NCBI RefSeq assembly: GCF_000192745.1
Contig: NC_015259.1
Span: 186,001-250,000 of the forward strand
Direction: 5' to 3'
DNA length: 64,000 bases
DNA from: Polymorphum gilvum SL003B-26A1
GTDB taxonomy: Bacteria > Pseudomonadota > Alphaproteobacteria > Rhizobiales > Stappiaceae
Position 1 is the first letter of the stretch. Each line of letters starts with the position of its first letter. The position numbers and the translations under genes are program-made. Below are positions 16,434 to 63,638 of this stretch, in pieces. The notes beneath the pieces are model-generated. The model did no database searches and had not been told where the DNA came from. It worked only from the letters and a program-made list of their open reading frames with translations.

Positions 16434-17618
16434 GTGCCAGATCCCGCCGCCCCGCCCGTCATCCTGCAGGTGATCCCGGAACTCGACACCGGCGGCGCAG
16501 AGCGCACCGCCGTCGACGTCGCCGCCGCGATCGTCGCGCGCGGCTGGACGGCGCTGGTGGTCAGCGAGGGCGGCCGTCTGGTCGGCGAACTGGAGGCGGC
16601 CGGGGCCGAACACATCGTGTTGCCGGTTTCCAGCAAGAATCCGGCGGTTCTCCGGCGCAATGCCGGACACTTGTCGGCACTTATCCGGAGCCGCTCGGTC
16701 AGCCTCATCCATGCCCGCAGCCGGGCCCCGGCGTGGTCGGCCCTGTGGGCGGCGCGGGCGGCGAAGGTCCCCTTCGTGACCACCTACCACGGTATCTACA
16801 AGCAGACCAACTTCTTCAAATCCTTGTACAATTCCGTCATGGCCCGGGGCGACGCGGTGATCGCCAACTCCGCCTACACCGCCCACCTGATCGCCGAGCG
16901 CCACCCCTTCGCGCGCGACCGCATCACCGTCATCCACCGCGGCTCGGACCTGTCCGCGCTGGCGCCGGAGGCAGTCGGCGGGGACAGGCGCGCGGCGCTG
17001 CGCGCGGCCTGGGGGATAAGTGCCGACACCCGGGTGGTGCTCCAGCTCGCGCGGCTGACGGCCTGGAAGGGCCAGCGCGTGGTCGTCGACGCCATGGCCG
17101 AGCTGGCCAGGCGGGGATATCCCGACGTGGTTGCGGTCATGGCCGGGGACGACCAGGGCCGCACCGGCTACCGTGCCGAGTTGGAGGCACGCATCGCCGC
17201 CGCCGGTCTTTCCGGCCGCGTCCGCCTGGTCGGCCATTGTTCCGACGTGCCTGCTGCCCTGTCGCTCGCCGACGTTGCCGTCGTCACCTCGACCGAGCCG
17301 GAAGCCTTCGGCCGCGCGGCGGTGGAGGCCCAGGCGGCGGGGATACCGGTCGTCGTCAGCGACCTCGGCGCGGTGCCCGAGACCGTGCTGGCGCCGCCGG
17401 AGGTGGACGCGGCCGCGCGCACCGGCTGGCGTGTGCCGGCCGGCGACCCGGCCGCCCTCGCCGACGCGATTGCCCTTGTCCTGCAGATGGATGCGGCGCA
17501 GCGGTCGGCGCTGACGGCGCGCGCGCGGGCGCATGTCGGCGCGCATTTCTCGGTCGCCGCGATGTGCGCGGCGACGCTTGCGGTCTATGCCAGCCTGCTC
17601 GGGCTGCCGCGGGGATAG
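16434..17618 (+). CDS. glycosyltransferase family 4 protein
   Basis: This GT-B fold enzyme of about 394 residues probably works at the cell envelope. The N-terminal half starts VILQVIPELDTGGAERT, typical of GT4 donors and acceptors. The C-terminal half has QLARLTAWKGQ and the EX7E motif in EPEAFGRAAVEAQAAGIPVV. I chose the GTG at 16434 because GGAG lies about ten bases upstream; an ATG at 16377 is the longer alternative. The sugar and acceptor are unknown. It stands alone between the hydrolase and infC. Confidence 0.85.
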   Translation: MPDPAAPPVILQVIPELDTGGAERTAVDVAAAIVARGWTALVVSEGGRLVGELEAAGAEHIVLPVSSKNPAVLRRNAGHLSALIRSRSVSLIHARSRAPAWSALWAARAAKVPFVTTYHGIYKQTNFFKSLYNSVMARGDAVIANSAYTAHLIAERHPFARDRITVIHRGSDLSALAPEAVGGDRRAALRAAWGISADTRVVLQLARLTAWKGQRVVVDAMAELARRGYPDVVAVMAGDDQGRTGYRAELEARIAAAGLSGRVRLVGHCSDVPAALSLADVAVVTSTEPEAFGRAAVEAQAAGIPVVVSDLGAVPETVLAPPEVDAAARTGWRVPAGDPAALADAIALVLQMDAAQRSALTARARAHVGAHFSVAAMCAATLAVYASLLGLPRG

Positions 17619-49403: not shown

Positions 49404-50960
49404 ATGCGCCTGCCTGCCGCCTGCCTGCTCCTTCTCTCCCTTGCCCTTCCCGTGCCGGCCTCCCATGCCGGCGAACTCGCCACCGTCCGCGGTGCGCCCG
49501 AACCCTTCGGGTTCGAACTGCTCGTCGACAAGGCGCGTGCGCTGGCCGCCAAGGCCTATGCCGAGCCGCGCGTGCGCGCCGCCGAGACGCTGGAGAAGAT
49601 CGACTACGATGCGCACTGGAAGATTCGCTTCCGCCCCGAGGAAACGGTGATGATCGGTGAGACCGCGCCGGTGCAGTTCTTCCACACCGGCCGCTACTTC
49701 AAGACGCCGGTCCGCCTCTACCAGGTCGAGGGCGGCCAGGCGCGCGAGATCCTCTACAACCCGCGCTACTTCGAAATGCCCGAGGACAGCCCGGCGCGCG
49801 ACCTGCCGGCCGACATCGGCTTCGCCGGCTTCCGCGTCATGCGCGGCGATCTGAAGACCGACTGGATCTCGTTTCTCGGTGCGTCCTATTTCCGCACCGA
49901 CGGCCAGTCTCGCCAGTACGGCCAGTCCGCGCGCGGCCTCGCGCTCGATACCGGCCTGTCCCGGCCGGAGGAGTTCCCGCGCTTCACCGACTTCTGGCTG
50001 GCCGGTCCGGAGAAGGACGGCGACACGCTGACCATCTACGCGCTGCTGGACAGCCCGAGCGTCGCGGGCGCCTACAAGATGAGCCTGCGCAACGCCGACG
50101 GCGAGGGCCAGGTGATCGGCATCAACAGCCGACTGTTCTTCCGCGCTCCGGTCGAACGGCTCGGAATCGCGCCGCTGACCAGCATGTACTGGTATTCCGA
50201 AACCAATCGCTCGGTTGGGCTCGACTGGCGCCCCGAAGTGCACGACACCGACGGTCTGGCCATCGTCACCGCCGAGGGCGAGCGCATCTGGCGGCCGCTC
50301 AACAACCCGGAGGCGCTGCGCACCTCCACTTTCCTGGCATCGAACCTGAAGGGCTTCGGTCTCGCCAAGCGCGACCGGGAGTTCGAGAACTACCAGGACG
50401 ACGGCGTCTTCTACGACAGGCGGCCGTCGGTGTGGATCGAGCCGCTCGAGCCGTTCGGAGAGGGTGCGGTGCAACTGGTCGAGATCCCGACCGACGACGA
50501 GATCTTCGACAACATCGTCGCCTATTTCCTGCCCAAGGATCTCCCTGAGGCGGGCAGCGAGAAGCGCTTCCACTACCGCATGCACTGGACGGACCGTCAT
50601 CCGGTCGAGACCGGCGGCGCGCTGACGGTCGCCACCCGCGTCGGCCAGGGCGGCGTGCCCGGCCAGCCGCGGCCTGCCGACCAGATCAAGGTGGTCATCG
50701 ACTTCAAGGGTCCGGCGCTCGACGGCTTGACCCGCGACGACGGTGTGGTGCCGGTCGTCGAGCTGTCGCGCGGCGAGCCGATCAACCCCTACCTGCTGCC
50801 GGTCGTCGGCACGGATCGCTGGCGCCTCGTCTTCGACGCCAGGGTCGCCGACCATGACCCGATCGAGGCGCGCGCCTACCTGAAGACCGACACGGACGTG
50901 CTGACCGAGACCTGGCTCGGCCAGATCTCGCACGAACTCGTTGCTACCCCGCCGCGCTAA
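49404..50960 (+). CDS. opgG: glucan biosynthesis protein OpgG/MdoG
   Basis: OpgG is a periplasmic protein needed to form the branched backbone of osmoregulated periplasmic glucans. The 518-residue precursor has a signal peptide (MRLPAACLLLLSLALPVPASHA). The MdoG domains follow: FGFELLVDKARALAAKAY, FRPEETVMIGE, GFAGFRVM..., SMYWYSETNR and WRPEVHDTDGL, then the Ig-like end. No opgH glucosyltransferase is in the window. The stop codon lies inside a repeated hairpin. Confidence 0.94.
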   Translation: MRLPAACLLLLSLALPVPASHAGELATVRGAPEPFGFELLVDKARALAAKAYAEPRVRAAETLEKIDYDAHWKIRFRPEETVMIGETAPVQFFHTGRYFKTPVRLYQVEGGQAREILYNPRYFEMPEDSPARDLPADIGFAGFRVMRGDLKTDWISFLGASYFRTDGQSRQYGQSARGLALDTGLSRPEEFPRFTDFWLAGPEKDGDTLTIYALLDSPSVAGAYKMSLRNADGEGQVIGINSRLFFRAPVERLGIAPLTSMYWYSETNRSVGLDWRPEVHDTDGLAIVTAEGERIWRPLNNPEALRTSTFLASNLKGFGLAKRDREFENYQDDGVFYDRRPSVWIEPLEPFGEGAVQLVEIPTDDEIFDNIVAYFLPKDLPEAGSEKRFHYRMHWTDRHPVETGGALTVATRVGQGGVPGQPRPADQIKVVIDFKGPALDGLTRDDGVVPVVELSRGEPINPYLLPVVGTDRWRLVFDARVADHDPIEARAYLKTDTDVLTETWLGQISHELVATPPR

Positions 50961-51043
50961 GGCGCGGCGAATGGCTGACATGCCGCGCTAAGGCGCGGCG
51001 AAGGCCGACAGGGTGCGCGGAGGCGCGGCGACCGTCAGACCGG
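50951..51043. repeat. three tandem 31-bp hairpin repeats at the opgG-alkA junction
   Basis: Units at 50951-50981, 50982-51012 and a degenerate third at 51013-51043 each hold a GC stem. The first two stems are GCCGCGC-TAAG-GCGCGGC. The opgG stop TAA is in the loop of the first, and the third runs into the 3' end of the convergent glycosylase gene. Probably a bidirectional terminator amplified by slippage. Confidence 0.75.
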
Positions 51044-51676
51044 CAGGGTCTCGCGGCCGTCGCGGTCGACCTTGTACCAGGCCCAGAACAGCCGGGCGGC
51101 GACGCCGCGCCACGGCGACCAGGCCTCGGCCAGCGCGTCGAGCGCGGCCGGTTTCGGCCGGTCGTCGAGGCCGAAGGCGTCGCGCACCGCGTTCTGCAGG
51201 GCAAGATCGCCGCTCGGGAACACGTCCGGGTGGCCGGCGCAGAACAGCAGGAAGATGTCCGCCGTCCAGCGCCCGACGCCGGTGATCCGGCACAGCGCCT
51301 CGTGGGCGTCCTCGGCCGGCCGTTCGGCCAGATGGGCAAGGTCGAGGCCGCCGGCGACCGCCTCGGCGATCGCCCGCACGGTGCGGATCTTGGGCCGCGA
51401 CAGGCCGGCGCCGGCCAGATCCGCGTCGCTGAGGCCGTCGAGCGTTGCCGCCTCGAACGGGTGCACCAGCGCCTCGACGCGGGCGAAGATGGCGTTGGCG
51501 CTGGCGACCGAGACCTGCTGGGCGACGACGATGTTGACGAGGCCGGCGAAGCTCGCCGCGCGCCGACGCAGCGGAACGGCGCCGGCCTTGGCGATCACCG
51601 GCGCCAGGCGCGGGTCGGCGCGGCCGAGATGGGCGAGGCCGGCGGCGATGTCGTCCAGGGTTTCGATCGGCTTCAC
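51035..51676 (-). CDS. DNA-3-methyladenine glycosylase II (AlkA-type)
   Basis: This HhH-GPD base-excision repair glycosylase of 213 residues has LVNIVVAQQVSVASANAIFARV and the helix-hairpin-helix ITGVGRWTADIFLLFCAGHPDVFPSGDLAL. The Asp in the GD pair is the catalytic residue. I chose the GTG at 51676, which begins just before the family core. Longer readings run through the gluQRS promoter. It is convergent with opgG. Confidence 0.9.
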   Translation of the reverse strand: MKPIETLDDIAAGLAHLGRADPRLAPVIAKAGAVPLRRRAASFAGLVNIVVAQQVSVASANAIFARVEALVHPFEAATLDGLSDADLAGAGLSRPKIRTVRAIAEAVAGGLDLAHLAERPAEDAHEALCRITGVGRWTADIFLLFCAGHPDVFPSGDLALQNAVRDAFGLDDRPKPAALDALAEAWSPWRGVAARLFWAWYKVDRDGRETLPV

Positions 51677-51780
51677 GGGACGCGGTTTCCTTTGCCGGAC
51701 CGGGGGCGGGCTGATAGGAAGATCAGGATCCGCGATCGCGCGCCCGCCCGCAAGCCGCTGCCCTCCCGCTGTGCTTGGAA

Positions 51781-51841
51781 GTGTCCTGCGAGTGTCCTGC
51801 GAGTATCCTGCCGGCGTCCTACAACTGTCCTGCACCTGTCC
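51781..51841 (+). repeat. 11-bp tandem repeat array ending at the gluQRS start codon
   Basis: Five and a half units of an 11-base repeat run from 51781 to 51841: GTGTCCTGCGA twice exactly, then GTATCCTGCCG, GCGTCCTACAA, CTGTCCTGCAC and CTGTCC. TCCT keeps the same phase in every full unit. The ATG begins at the next base. The array replaces a normal Shine-Dalgarno region. Confidence 0.9.
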
Positions 51842-52732
51842 ATGCCTCGTCAGCCCCGGCCCGTCTTCCGCTTCGCACCTTCGCCCAACGGCCACCTGCA
51901 CCTCGGCCATGCGCTCTCCGCGTTGCTGAACTTCGAGGCGGCGCGGGCGACCGGCGGGCGTTTCCTGCTGCGCATCGAGGACATCGACACGGTCCGCTGC
52001 ACGCCGGAACTGGAGGCCGACCTCTACGAGGATCTCGCCTGGCTCGGCATTTCCTGGGAGCAGCCGGTGCGGCGCCAGTCGGAGCATTTCGCCGACTACC
52101 GGGCCGCGCTCGACCGGCTGCGCGCCGCGGGGCTGGTCTACGAGGCCTTCCTCACCCGCGGCGAGATCCGGCGCGTGGTTGCCGACCGCGAGAGCGGCGG
52201 GCTGATCTGGCCGCGCGATCCCGACGGCGCGCCGCTCTATCCCGGCGATGCGGCGTTGCTGTCGCCGGCCGACATCGACGCCCGCGCCCGGGCCGGCGTG
52301 CCTTTCGCCCTGCGTCTGAGGATGGCAAAGGCGCTGGCGTGCCTGGCCGCGCCGCTGACCTGGCGCGAGGAGGGGGCGGGTCCAGCCGGCGAGACCGGCA
52401 CGGTCGCCGCCGACCCGGCGGCCTGGGGCGACGTTGTGCTCGCCCGCAAGGAGACGCCGACCAGCTATCACCTGTCGGTCGTCGTCGACGACGCGCTGCA
52501 GGACGTCACCCATGTCGTGCGCGGTCGTGACCTGTTCCACGCCACCTCGGTGCACCGCCTGCTGCAGGTGCTGCTCGGTCTGCCCGAGCCGGTCTACCGG
52601 CACCATAGGCTGATCCTCGGCGGCGACGGGCGCAAGCTGTCGAAGTCCGAACGCCACACGGCGCTGTGCGATCTCCGCGCCGAGGGCGCGACGCCCGCCG
52701 ATATCCGCCGCCTGGTCGGGCTCGGCGCCTGA
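51842..52732 (+). CDS. gluQ: tRNA glutamyl-Q(34) synthetase GluQRS
   Basis: GluQRS is a paralogue of the catalytic half of glutamyl-tRNA synthetase. It attaches glutamate to the queuosine base of tRNA(Asp). The 296-residue protein has FRFAPSPNGHLHLGHALSALLNFEAA (HIGH region), LRIEDIDTVRC, THVVRGRDLFHATSVHRLLQ and the KMSKS-like LSKSERH, and lacks the anticodon-binding half. The ATG at 51842 follows directly on an 11-bp repeat array and has no clear Shine-Dalgarno. Confidence 0.94.
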   Translation: MPRQPRPVFRFAPSPNGHLHLGHALSALLNFEAARATGGRFLLRIEDIDTVRCTPELEADLYEDLAWLGISWEQPVRRQSEHFADYRAALDRLRAAGLVYEAFLTRGEIRRVVADRESGGLIWPRDPDGAPLYPGDAALLSPADIDARARAGVPFALRLRMAKALACLAAPLTWREEGAGPAGETGTVAADPAAWGDVVLARKETPTSYHLSVVVDDALQDVTHVVRGRDLFHATSVHRLLQVLLGLPEPVYRHHRLILGGDGRKLSKSERHTALCDLRAEGATPADIRRLVGLGA

Positions 52733-53926: not shown

Positions 53927-55117
53927 ATGACGGCGGCCGGCAAGGGCGCCGACGGAGCGCGCCTCGCGCTGCTCGCCCATGACCTGCGCACGCCGCTGTC
54001 GGCCATGCGCCTGACCGCGGACCTGATCGGCGCCGAGCCGCTGAGCGAACGCCAGCGCGGCCACCTCGACATCCTGATTCGCTCGATCGACGCGCTGGCC
54101 GAGATGACCGGCGAACTGATCCGGCGCGGCAGGCCCGACGCGGAGCCGGAAGCGGTCACCGGCGACGCCCGCCGCATCGTCGCCGACGTGGTCGACCTGT
54201 TCCGCATCGCGGCGACCCAGAAGGGCCTAACCCTGGAGGTGCGGCTGCCGAAGACTGCCGAACCGCTCGCCATCGCCGCGCCGATGGCCTTGCGGCGGAT
54301 GTTGGCGGCGCTGGTCGACAATGCGGTCAAGTACACCGACGCCGGCGTCGTCGTCGTGGCGATCGAGGCCAGCGCGACGAAGGATGGCGCGACGAAGGAT
54401 GGCGCGACGAAGGATGGCGCGACGAAGGATGGCGCGACGCAGGAGGGCTGGCTGCGGCTGTCGGTCACCGACACCGGCCCCGGCGTAGATCCCATGGAAC
54501 GCGCGCGCCTGTTCCGCCCCTACGTGCGCGGCAGCGCGGGGCGCAACGGCGTCCAGGGTTCTGGCCTGGGCCTGTGGGGAGTCGCCCAGTTGGTCAAGGA
54601 GGCCGGCGGCCGGCTGACCCTTTCCAGCCCGCCGGAGGGCGGCACCTGCTTCACGCTGGAGCTGCCGCTGGCGGCCGCGGCCGGTGGCCCGGCTCCGGTC
54701 GCGAGCCACGCCGGGATCGCGGAACCGGATGCGGAGGCCCATGTCCTGATCGTCGACGACAACGACACCAACCGGCGCCTGCTGTCGGCGCTGCTGGAAT
54801 CCTTCGGCATCACCTGCGACCAGGCGGCGAGCGGCACGGCGGCGGTCGAGATGGTGGCGCGCACGCCCTACGACGCGGTGCTGCTCGACCTGCACATGCC
54901 CGGCATGAGCGGCCTGGAGACGGCCGCCAGTCTGCGCGCCGGTCCCGGCGGCGACGGACTGCCGCTGATCGCGGTCACGGCGGCGCTGGAATCGGTCGGC
55001 GACCGCCGGCTGCGCCAGGCCGGTTTCCAGGAGGTGCTGGCCAAGCCCCTGTCGCCGGCGCATCTGTTCCAGGCACTCGACCTCGCCCGCCGGCACCGGC
55101 GCGAGCGGCATGCCTAG
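53927..55117 (+). CDS. soluble hybrid histidine kinase with receiver domain
   Basis: This 396-residue cytoplasmic protein has no sensor domain or membrane segment. HisKA is at the very start (His18 in LLAHDLRTPLSAMRL). HATPase (about 75-248) has N132 in LVDNAVKY, DTGPGVD and GSGLGLWGV. A receiver domain (about 272-390) has DD near 277 and the phospho-Asp D321 in VLLDLHMPG. Residues 150-174 are five ATKDG units encoded by a 15-bp tandem repeat, inserted between the N and G1 boxes. Its 3' end overlaps the next gene by four bases. Confidence 0.9.
   Translation: MTAAGKGADGARLALLAHDLRTPLSAMRLTADLIGAEPLSERQRGHLDILIRSIDALAEMTGELIRRGRPDAEPEAVTGDARRIVADVVDLFRIAATQKGLTLEVRLPKTAEPLAIAAPMALRRMLAALVDNAVKYTDAGVVVVAIEASATKDGATKDGATKDGATKDGATQEGWLRLSVTDTGPGVDPMERARLFRPYVRGSAGRNGVQGSGLGLWGVAQLVKEAGGRLTLSSPPEGGTCFTLELPLAAAAGGPAPVASHAGIAEPDAEAHVLIVDDNDTNRRLLSALLESFGITCDQAASGTAAVEMVARTPYDAVLLDLHMPGMSGLETAASLRAGPGGDGLPLIAVTAALESVGDRRLRQAGFQEVLAKPLSPAHLFQALDLARRHRRERHA
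54374..54448 (+). repeat. 15-bp in-frame tandem repeat in the histidine kinase gene
   Basis: Four identical copies of GCGACGAAGGATGGC and one variant (GCGACGCAGGAGGGC) encode (ATKDG)4-ATQEG inside the ATPase domain. Confidence 0.95.
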
Positions 55118-61268: not shown

Positions 61269-63638
61269 TCACATGAACTGGAAGTCGTCGTCAGCCCTGG
61301 GCAGGAGCCCGAGGTCGGCTTCGGCGAGAAGGAGGAAATCCTGCGTATCGACTGGCGCGTCGGCCGGCGCGTCGGCCGCCCAGGCTTCGTCTTCGAAGGA
61401 CGTCAGCACGAAGGAGCCGTCGTCGTCCTGATCGTCCTGTCCGGACTCGATGTCGAGGAACGCGAAGCTGTCCGCTTCCGCGGCTTGCGAGAAGGCGATC
61501 GCTTCCTGCGACCCGCCCCCGGACAGGTTGCGGCCCTCGAAATAGCCGTGCCGTACGTAGTGCAGGACGGCTCCGTCGAGATTCGATCCGTAGACGGCGA
61601 GCAGATCGGCGTTGCCTGACGCGTTGATGTAGGCGGCGGCATCGAACAGGGTCGAGCGCCCCTCGCCGAAGCCGTGCATGATGAAATGCGTCGTGCCCTG
61701 AGTCGCGTCGGATCCGTAGGCCAGAATCAGGTCGGCATAGGAGGCGATGTAGCGCAGGCCGTCGAAATTGTCGCCGCGGCCCTCGGTGAACCCGTGGGCA
61801 TAGTAGTGCTGCAGCGCGCCTGCGGTGTTGGTGCCGTAGACGGCGATCAGGTCGCCGTAGGAGGCGATGTAGTCGAGCGCCGAAAACCGGTCCGTGCTGC
61901 GTCCCTCCGCGGCGCCGTGCTGGATGAAATGGGTGACGGCCTGGTTGATGTCGGTGCCGTAGGCCGCGCGCAGGTCGGCATAGGCGCCGAGATACAGACG
62001 GGTATCGAACCGCAGTCCCCGGCCTTCGCCGAAGCCGTGGTTGATGTAATGCTCCGCCCCGATCGAGCCGTTGGTGCCGTAGGCGGCGCGCAGGTCGGCA
62101 TAGGCGGCGATGTATTCCAGGCCGTTGAACGACGTCGTCCGCCCCTCGCCGTAGCCATGGCTGACGTAATGCAGGGCGCCGATGGTGGCGTTGGCCCCGT
62201 GCGCCTGGATCAGGTCGGCGTGGGAGGCAATGTAGGCGAGACCGTCGAAGGTGATCGTCCGGCCCTCGCCGTAGCCGTGGCTGATGTAATGCAGGGCGCC
62301 GATGGTGGCGTTGGCCCCGTGCGCCTGGATCAGGTCGACATGGGACGCGATATAGCTCAGGCCGTTGAAGGTGATCGAGCGGCCTTCGGCGGCGGCGAAA
62401 TTGGCGTAGTGGTTGAGCAGGCCGAGCGCATTGCCGCCGATGCCGGTGATCAAGTCGGCGTAGGACGCGCCATAGGCGTAGATCGACCCGGAGGATCCGA
62501 ACGAAGCGGTGCTGCGCGTGGTGTCCGAGAAGGCGACCATCTCGATGTTGACCAGCACGTCGTTGCCCTGGCTGGACGCCAGTGTCATGCCCTCGAAGAA
62601 GACGGTGACGCGCGTTCCGGCGAGCGAGGCGCCGATATGGGCGGTGTCGAAGCCGGCGCCGCCGTCGAGGATGTTGTTGGCGGCATTGCCGATCAACGTG
62701 TCGTTGCCGCTGCCGCCGATGGCGTTCTCGATGACCGTGCCGCGGGCGATGATCAGGTTGCCGGTCAGGCCGCGCACGCTGGAGACGTGCTCGGCCCGCA
62801 GGTCGATGGTCTGGTTGGCGGACACGGTGCCGAAGTTGAGCGTGTCGAAGCCGCCGTTGTCGTAGATCGTCACCGCGACCGGTCGGCTGAAGGAGGTCAG
62901 GCTGTCCAGGTAGCCGCCGGCGGTCGAGCCGTCGCCGTAGACGGTGTTGCCGGCGCGGATCGTCGTCGGCGTGCCGTAGAGATTCTGGATCGCGATGATG
63001 TCGGCGACCATCGGCGTGATCGCGTAGGCGTAGCTGGCCGCGATCGACGTGTTCTCGACTTGGTCGAAATACGACATGATCGAGGCCTGCCAGGAATCGT
63101 TGGCATAGTGGTTGTGCACGCCGTAAGTGGCCGAGCCGTCGTAGTTGCCGGCGTGGCCGAGACCGAGCGCATGGCCGATCTCGTGGACGTAGGTCTGGAA
63201 GCTGTAGCTGTCGATCGACGTGCCGTAGGCGCTCAGCCAGGCGGTCGAGATGTTGACCGACGCCTGCGTGATGGTGGTGCCGCTCCACCAGGTCGAGGCA
63301 TAGGCGCCGGAATTGTTGTCGTCGAAGGTGATCTGGGCGCCGCCGGTCACCTGCGCGAAGTTGATGCCGGTGACATCGGTCCAGGCCTGCAGCGCCTGCG
63401 TGGCAAGGCTGCGCCCGGCGCTGGTCAGGCCCGTGATGTCGACGGTGATGCTGCCGCCCGGCGCGACGTTGAACGAGTGCCGGCCGTAGCCGTTATGGTT
63501 CCAGTAGCCGTCGGTGAGCTGGTGGGCGATCTGGTCGTTGGAATAGACCGGCAGGGTGGATGCCAAGGTGGCGGATCCTGCTCCCGCCGCGGCGTGGTCG
63601 GCGGACCCGGAAGAGGCGGCTTTCGAAAACTGGATCAT
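61269..63638 (-). CDS. secreted serralysin-like M10 metalloprotease with eight 40-residue repeats
   Basis: The 789-residue protein has the zinc motif HEIGHALGLGH (His152, Glu153, His156, His162) and the metzincin Met-turn SIMSY (about residue 188), marking a catalytic serralysin-type domain. A single RTX-like stretch (GGSGNDTLIGNAANNILDGGAGFD, about 309-331) follows. Then come eight repeats of about 40 residues (388-703, pattern YIASYADLI.AYG...GA.HY..HG..EGR) and an acidic tail. There is no Sec signal; type I secretion is likely. GGGAGG precedes the ATG. Confidence 0.88.
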   Translation of the reverse strand: MIQFSKAASSGSADHAAAGAGSATLASTLPVYSNDQIAHQLTDGYWNHNGYGRHSFNVAPGGSITVDITGLTSAGRSLATQALQAWTDVTGINFAQVTGGAQITFDDNNSGAYASTWWSGTTITQASVNISTAWLSAYGTSIDSYSFQTYVHEIGHALGLGHAGNYDGSATYGVHNHYANDSWQASIMSYFDQVENTSIAASYAYAITPMVADIIAIQNLYGTPTTIRAGNTVYGDGSTAGGYLDSLTSFSRPVAVTIYDNGGFDTLNFGTVSANQTIDLRAEHVSSVRGLTGNLIIARGTVIENAIGGSGNDTLIGNAANNILDGGAGFDTAHIGASLAGTRVTVFFEGMTLASSQGNDVLVNIEMVAFSDTTRSTASFGSSGSIYAYGASYADLITGIGGNALGLLNHYANFAAAEGRSITFNGLSYIASHVDLIQAHGANATIGALHYISHGYGEGRTITFDGLAYIASHADLIQAHGANATIGALHYVSHGYGEGRTTSFNGLEYIAAYADLRAAYGTNGSIGAEHYINHGFGEGRGLRFDTRLYLGAYADLRAAYGTDINQAVTHFIQHGAAEGRSTDRFSALDYIASYGDLIAVYGTNTAGALQHYYAHGFTEGRGDNFDGLRYIASYADLILAYGSDATQGTTHFIMHGFGEGRSTLFDAAAYINASGNADLLAVYGSNLDGAVLHYVRHGYFEGRNLSGGGSQEAIAFSQAAEADSFAFLDIESGQDDQDDDGSFVLTSFEDEAWAADAPADAPVDTQDFLLLAEADLGLLPRADDDFQFM
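61530..62477 (-). repeat. eight 40-residue protein repeats in the M10 protease
   Basis: Units at residues about 388-427, 428-467, 468-507, 508-547, 548-588, 589-628, 629-668 and 669-703 share a Tyr-Ile start, Asp-Leu, Gly, His-Tyr, His-Gly and a closing Glu-Gly-Arg. Units two and three are nearly identical in protein and DNA, implying recent duplication. Confidence 0.9.

Follow-up and report, generated by a model that had tools for sequence, protein, structure and literature searches.

Dispersed intergenic arrays of heptamer units have been described in Xanthomonas (GGGAATC) and in Nostoc/Anabaena (GGGGA(C/T)T), forming short tandem repeats between genes (PMC4692102). These heptamer arrays lie on average 28 nt from the upstream ORF and 160 nt from the downstream ORF (PMC4692102). 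Another type of dispersed element, the REP/BIME elements of enterobacteria and other bacteria, is frequently found between convergent genes (PMC1525189). On a broader scale, a periodicity of 10-11 bp is present across bacterial genomes as a weak A/T dinucleotide bias that occurs everywhere (PMC516772, PMC4132750).

The array discussed here abuts the start codon of gluQRS in Polymorphum gilvum and is one copy of a dispersed family found at roughly a hundred loci of the same genome, the nearest in kind being the Xanthomonas and Nostoc heptamer arrays. The likeness lies in about a hundred short tandem arrays that occupy both strands of the intergenic DNA of one lineage, near the upstream ORF, with degenerate units and no clear functional theme. 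The differences are that the unit has 11 bp rather than 7, that it is not a G-quadruplex repeat, and that its units are strongly diverged but strictly phased, follow a T-to-G polarity and apparently occur in one species only. The STRR heptanucleotide repeats of heterocystous cyanobacteria are likewise dispersed short tandem repeats between genes, differing in unit length and sequence, and we know of no polarity in them. The family is thus tandem, intergenic and present on both strands, as heptamer and STRR-like repeats are, whereas its unit is not a G-rich heptamer, so that it resembles those particular families without being a member of them. REP elements are similar by location only, being dispersed, extragenic and frequent in convergent spacers; they are palindromic hairpins, whereas the present arrays consist of direct repeats and have no conserved stem-loop. 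The genome-wide periodicity shares the intergenic setting and a period near the helical repeat, whereas the family studied here is a GC-rich, discrete element.

No account of this 11-bp repeat turned up in the literature searches, and a polar, strictly 11-bp-phased repeat at about a hundred sites of one lineage represents, as far as could be found, a class without description. The constancy of spacing in spite of diverged sequence poses a clear question, namely whether the DNA is read once per helical turn or whether units move whole. The case also calls for caution, in that a striking array at one gene need not regulate that gene.

The array at the gluQRS start codon

The stretch of DNA analyzed, referred to as the window, comprises 64,000 nucleotides (C2:186001-250000); the genome has two contigs with 4,718,963 bases in total. 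At positions 51781-51841 on the plus strand, it reads AGTGTCCTGCG AGTGTCCTGCG AGTATCCTGCC GGCGTCCTACA ACTGTCCTGCA CCTGTCC, followed directly by ATG, which amounts to five full 11-bp units and a half unit. Read in the register that the family shares across the genome, the array is composed of T-type units only (TCCTGCGAGTG TCCTGCGAGTA TCCTGCCGGCG TCCTACAACTG TCCTGCACCTG and the half unit TCC, which abuts the gluQRS ATG at 51842), and its five full units at 51784-51838 (C2:237784-237838, plus strand) score 23 bits against the family matrix. Tandem Repeats Finder reports an 11-bp period at 51780-51833 with a score of 59, and 38 of 50 positions are identical at lag 11. When the window was simulated 60 times with an order-2 Markov model and the best 50-bp stretch of each simulation was scored, the highest value was 31 for period 11 and 32 when all periods of 7-20 were admitted, which rules out a chance origin of the gluQRS array. 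The sequence, the repeat finder and the simulations therefore bear out the preliminary description of an 11-bp array of five and a half units that runs up to the ATG, while the core that it gave, TCCTG, is present in units 1, 2, 3 and 5, unit 4 having TCCTA instead.

The downstream gene, at 51842-52732 on the plus strand, encodes a tRNA glutamyl-Q(34) synthetase (NCBIfam NF004315.1 GluQRS, E = 6.6e-119); the ATG at 51842 is probably its start, with a product beginning MPRQPRPVFRFAPSPNG. A divergent alkA-like gene resembling DNA-3-methyladenine glycosylase genes lies at 51035-51676 on the minus strand (NCBIfam NF007641, E = 2.9e-6, below the threshold), and it is also the divergent neighbor of gluQRS in several relatives. 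A TGATAGGA box at 51712-51719, of the form TGWTAGRA, is kept in relatives with the divergent pair and could possibly be the minus-strand -10 element of the alkA-like gene. The distance from this box to the gluQRS start is 122 bp here vs 28-50 bp in relatives, and the distance from the alkA-like start to the gluQRS ATG is 176 bp here vs mostly 83-118 bp (138 bp in one relative). The spacer exceeds that of most relatives with the same gene pair by 65-95 bp, roughly the length of the 61-bp array together with some sequence beside it, and the array is therefore most simply explained, on this comparison, as DNA that was most likely added. The leaders of gluQRS in relatives mostly have no Shine-Dalgarno-like sequence either, so that no ribosome-binding site has been replaced by the array, contrary to what had been proposed.

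Three other tandem repeats are located in the window: a five-copy 15-bp repeat in a histidine-kinase-like gene, translated as repeated ATKDG (54372-54448); a 30-bp repeat of 2.7 copies in the convergent spacer between the ends of the gene at 49404-50960 and the alkA-like gene (50951-51031); and 120-bp repeats in about three copies, with 78-79% matches, inside a long minus-strand gene (61953-62388).

A dispersed family of polar arrays

A search of the own genome with an 11-bp-spaced motif revealed more arrays at unrelated places, and the size of the family was surveyed in the 64-kb window together with an evenly spaced, unbiased 400-kb sample of the genome. In the intergenic DNA of this combined set, pairs of unit cores occur 29, 30, 20 and 11 times at lags of 11, 22, 33 and 44 bp, vs about 2 times at other lags. 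With a threshold of at least 14 bits, a unit matrix finds 21 strand-wise array matches (about 11 loci) in 55 kb of intergenic DNA, vs 0-2 for intergenic controls with periods of 9, 10, 12 and 13 and 0.8 for shuffles; in 408 kb of coding DNA, 14 matches pass the lowest threshold and 4 pass 22 bits. About 10 loci in the unbiased 400 kb correspond to approximately 116 expected genome-wide (Poisson 95% range 56-214). A sequence-only family model of 66 positions, built from nine arrays of the own genome, yields 148 matches there at E<10, about 55 of which are below 1e-3. From the model matches, 75 loci with 3-11 units each were collected, an incomplete inventory in which about 54 loci are intergenic; the gene calls at these loci come from an ad hoc caller and are approximate.

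Several of the in-gene matches are ordinary coding sequence, as 11 bp is near the helix period of about 3.6 residues. Such a coding origin, through an amphipathic helix, was accepted for these decoys and rejected for the noncoding arrays. The window itself contains a likely decoy of this type at 16590-16700, where CCGG cores in 11-bp register lie inside a glycosyltransferase gene with normal protein sequence.

The unit of the family is KCCKGA-NNCCN, of 11 bp, and exists in two types. T-type units follow TCC[TGC][GA][AC]NNCNN, with forms such as TCCTGAAACCG, TCCTACTTCCC and TCCGGAAACCC (TCCTGA/TCCGGA...), and G-type units follow GCCGGANNCCT, with the form GCCGGAGACCT (GCCGGA...). A typical element of about 66-88 bp consists of 2-6 T-type units followed by 2-5 G-type units and is found in either orientation. 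Among the 35 arrays with a direction, T-type units precede G-type units in 34 and follow them in 1, and the excess of ordered T>G pairs amounts to 290 vs a shuffle maximum of 88. The rank of a unit carries sequence information, strongly for T-type units (0 of 1000 shuffles) and more weakly for G-type units (4 of 1000). An 11-bp array at C2:3213770-3213840 (about 1470-1530 of locus L070) is built from another unit (GACCGGCCCGA, TCCTGGCCAGA); it was missed by the family matrix and stops shortly upstream of a possible start codon.

The common core, the T-to-G order and the rank-specific unit sequences across loci require a shared source and stand against independent chance slippage, locus by locus, as the origin of the arrays. 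That explanation could draw on the greater likeness of adjacent T-type units, whose spacers have an identity of 0.48 vs 0.38 across different arrays, and on the perfect tandem units within some arrays; even so, it is scarcely credible. Absence of the array from every relative, together with a transcript starting far upstream, had been put forward beforehand as the sign of a chance slippage product. The absence, one half of this, is indeed observed, while the existence of a family throughout the genome excludes slippage.

The preliminary description had regarded the array as an element of gluQRS. In favor of a regulatory array specific to this gene, it abuts the start codon, in the necessary promoter or leader region, and among the family copies it is a positional outlier in lying 0 bp from a start codon, the next-nearest intergenic copy among the collected loci being 8 bp away from one. 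Polar arrays of the same family, however, accompany unrelated genes at about 100 other places, in both orientations and mainly at 3' ends, and no such array was found in the gluQRS leaders of the 29 relatives inspected within the same taxonomic family. A gluQRS-specific function is therefore very improbable. In its GAGTG spacers, the gluQRS array resembles the arrays at C2:3820868 and C2:2567589. The interpretation favored, with reasonable though not high confidence, is that it is a T-type-only copy of a lineage-specific dispersed intergenic repeat and not a control element of gluQRS.

Lineage restriction and genomic placement

The genus is represented by one genome, and the comparisons were made with relatives from the family, order and class. 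The family model gives 51 matches in the own genome vs 0-1 in each of 86 other genomes of the family, a single match among 396 further genomes from the order and two weak matches in 384 other genomes of the class, the order and class draws partly overlapping; these counts refer to the best first-look candidates scored with a model trained on this genome, which other 11-bp repeats in relatives would escape. Family-wide conservation of the arrays is ruled out by this near-absence. The CCGG excess at lag 11 was not found in intergenic samples of four relatives, and CCGG repeated four times at 11-bp spacing occurs 91 times here vs 6 times in a reversed control and 0-26 times in relatives, some of which have a modest excess. 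When a degenerate three-unit pattern was searched in all species genomes, scattered single matches in unrelated genomes and no cluster in one taxon were found among the matches listed, from which the own and very near genomes may have been left out. Within the genomes compared, the repeat family is peculiar to the lineage of this genome, Polymorphum gilvum.

A modest excess of the fourfold CCGG pattern at 11 bp was noted in three relatives within the taxonomic family, G034, G025 and G023 (21 vs 4, 9 vs 0 and 11 vs 1, respectively), and single long arrays with other spacers occur in relatives at L138 (G024:C6:50184-50275) and L135/L240 (G014:C2:95384-95424), with CCGGACACGCG and TCCGGCATGAC. 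These are perhaps seeds or cousins of the family.

Within the genome, 16 of 53 arrays lie in convergent spacers, vs 36 of 261 spacers overall (14% by number, 9% by length; p = 0.002). Of 24 arrays between parallel genes, 20 are nearer to the stop codon of the upstream gene, with median distances of 38 vs 80 bp. The neighboring genes of the arrays have no common function or regulon theme. The initial pattern search suggested a strand bias (36 vs 10), which disappeared in the larger set.

The location of the arrays after stop codons might suggest that they act at the RNA level, as Rho loading sites with a pyrimidine-C about every 11 nt or as structured elements of 3' or 5' UTRs. Rho primary sites resemble the arrays in their length of 66-88 nt and their UCC spacing. 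Orientation, however, speaks against Rho sites, since 13 arrays between parallel genes are sense and 11 antisense, without the strand preference that a rut site would display. As for structure, no conserved RNA fold or hairpin was found across 55 arrays, the mean fold z-score being -0.4 on one strand and -0.5 on the other. The gluQRS array folds less well than its shuffled versions (z = +1.6), while the array at C2:1479781 folds well (z = -4.0). A hairpin pairing T-type against G-type units, as TCCGGC and GCCGGA are complementary, was rejected as a general feature, with one good fold only. None of the Rfam 15 covariance models matched at 51650-51960 up to E=1, and at nine array loci of the own genome, only the neighboring tmRNA and BjrC1505 were matched. 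An RNA-level function is thus improbable. The array at C2:1479781 comprises 10 units and lies upstream of tmRNA, about 12 bp from its 5' end (in locus L155, tmRNA at 1083-1449 on the minus strand and the array from 1461).

Strict phase and the possible copying of whole units

Strong units are separated by 11 bp in 22 cases, 22 bp in 20, 33 bp in 12 and 44 bp in 5, vs 1-2 cases each at 10, 12, 21 and 23 bp. Although the mean in-register identity of copies is 0.54, 1-bp phase breaks remain at background level, and there are practically no indels except of entire units. The CC at core positions 2-3 is retained in 92-96% of interior units, even with each unit left out of its own scoring, while the spacers are conserved far less.

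The most substantial alternative to a passive repeat is that the arrays are phased DNA-binding platforms, with a protein of this species contacting CCKGA at each helical turn, on one face of the DNA, through cooperative subunits. Placement at 3' ends and in convergent spacers would suit a role in nucleoid organization, supercoil insulation or as a roadblock, and the gluQRS copy would affect initiation by proximity. This alternative finds its main support in the near-absence of phase breaks despite divergence, spacings of exactly 11 bp being retained with almost none of 10 or 12 bp and peaks occurring only at integral turns (11, 22, 33 and 44 bp); the retained CC core, the neutrality of orientation and the enrichment in convergent spacers also agree with it. 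On the other side, there is neither a candidate protein nor a regulon theme, array length and unit content vary widely, and all relatives are without arrays; moreover, stronger conservation of the core than of the spacer is also expected from in-register shuffling of units that share one core and have mixed spacers. Platforms of this kind are accordingly rather unlikely. The one-turn phasing earlier ascribed to a cooperatively bound protein is non-random, strict and genome-wide, and it is compatible with such a protein without being proof of one.

Under the preferred interpretation of a dispersed repeat, the family would have multiplied in the recent history of the lineage through copying combined with local gain and loss of whole 11-bp units, and arrays would persist where extra DNA is tolerated, at 3' ends and in convergent spacers. 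The insertion at gluQRS would have fallen between the start codon and the conserved region of the divergent promoters, lengthening the leader or promoter spacer by about 60 bp, and would serve no regulatory function of its own. We infer that the arrays arose by dispersal, that the copy at gluQRS is nearly neutral, and that the exchange of whole units accounts for the phasing. Two observations stand against a purely passive repeat. One is the divergence without phase breaks, as neutral decay should give indels, which hints at selection or frequent exchange of units; the other is an array inside a gene, without length change, which simple insertion does not explain.

This second array consists of four near-perfect 11-bp units at C2:1738486-1738529, in a FAD monooxygenase gene (L206, 855-2048, minus strand), where it fills a variable hairpin with length unchanged relative to relatives; it appears to have been written into the coding sequence without net insertion. 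It may tentatively be considered, though it is not the expected outcome, that the approximately 100 polar, one-turn-phased arrays are either platforms of a DNA-organizing protein or traces of a process that copies 11-bp units in register into existing DNA, sometimes without length change, as in this gene. Another in-gene match falls within the linker of an ABC transporter of the CydC/CydD type.
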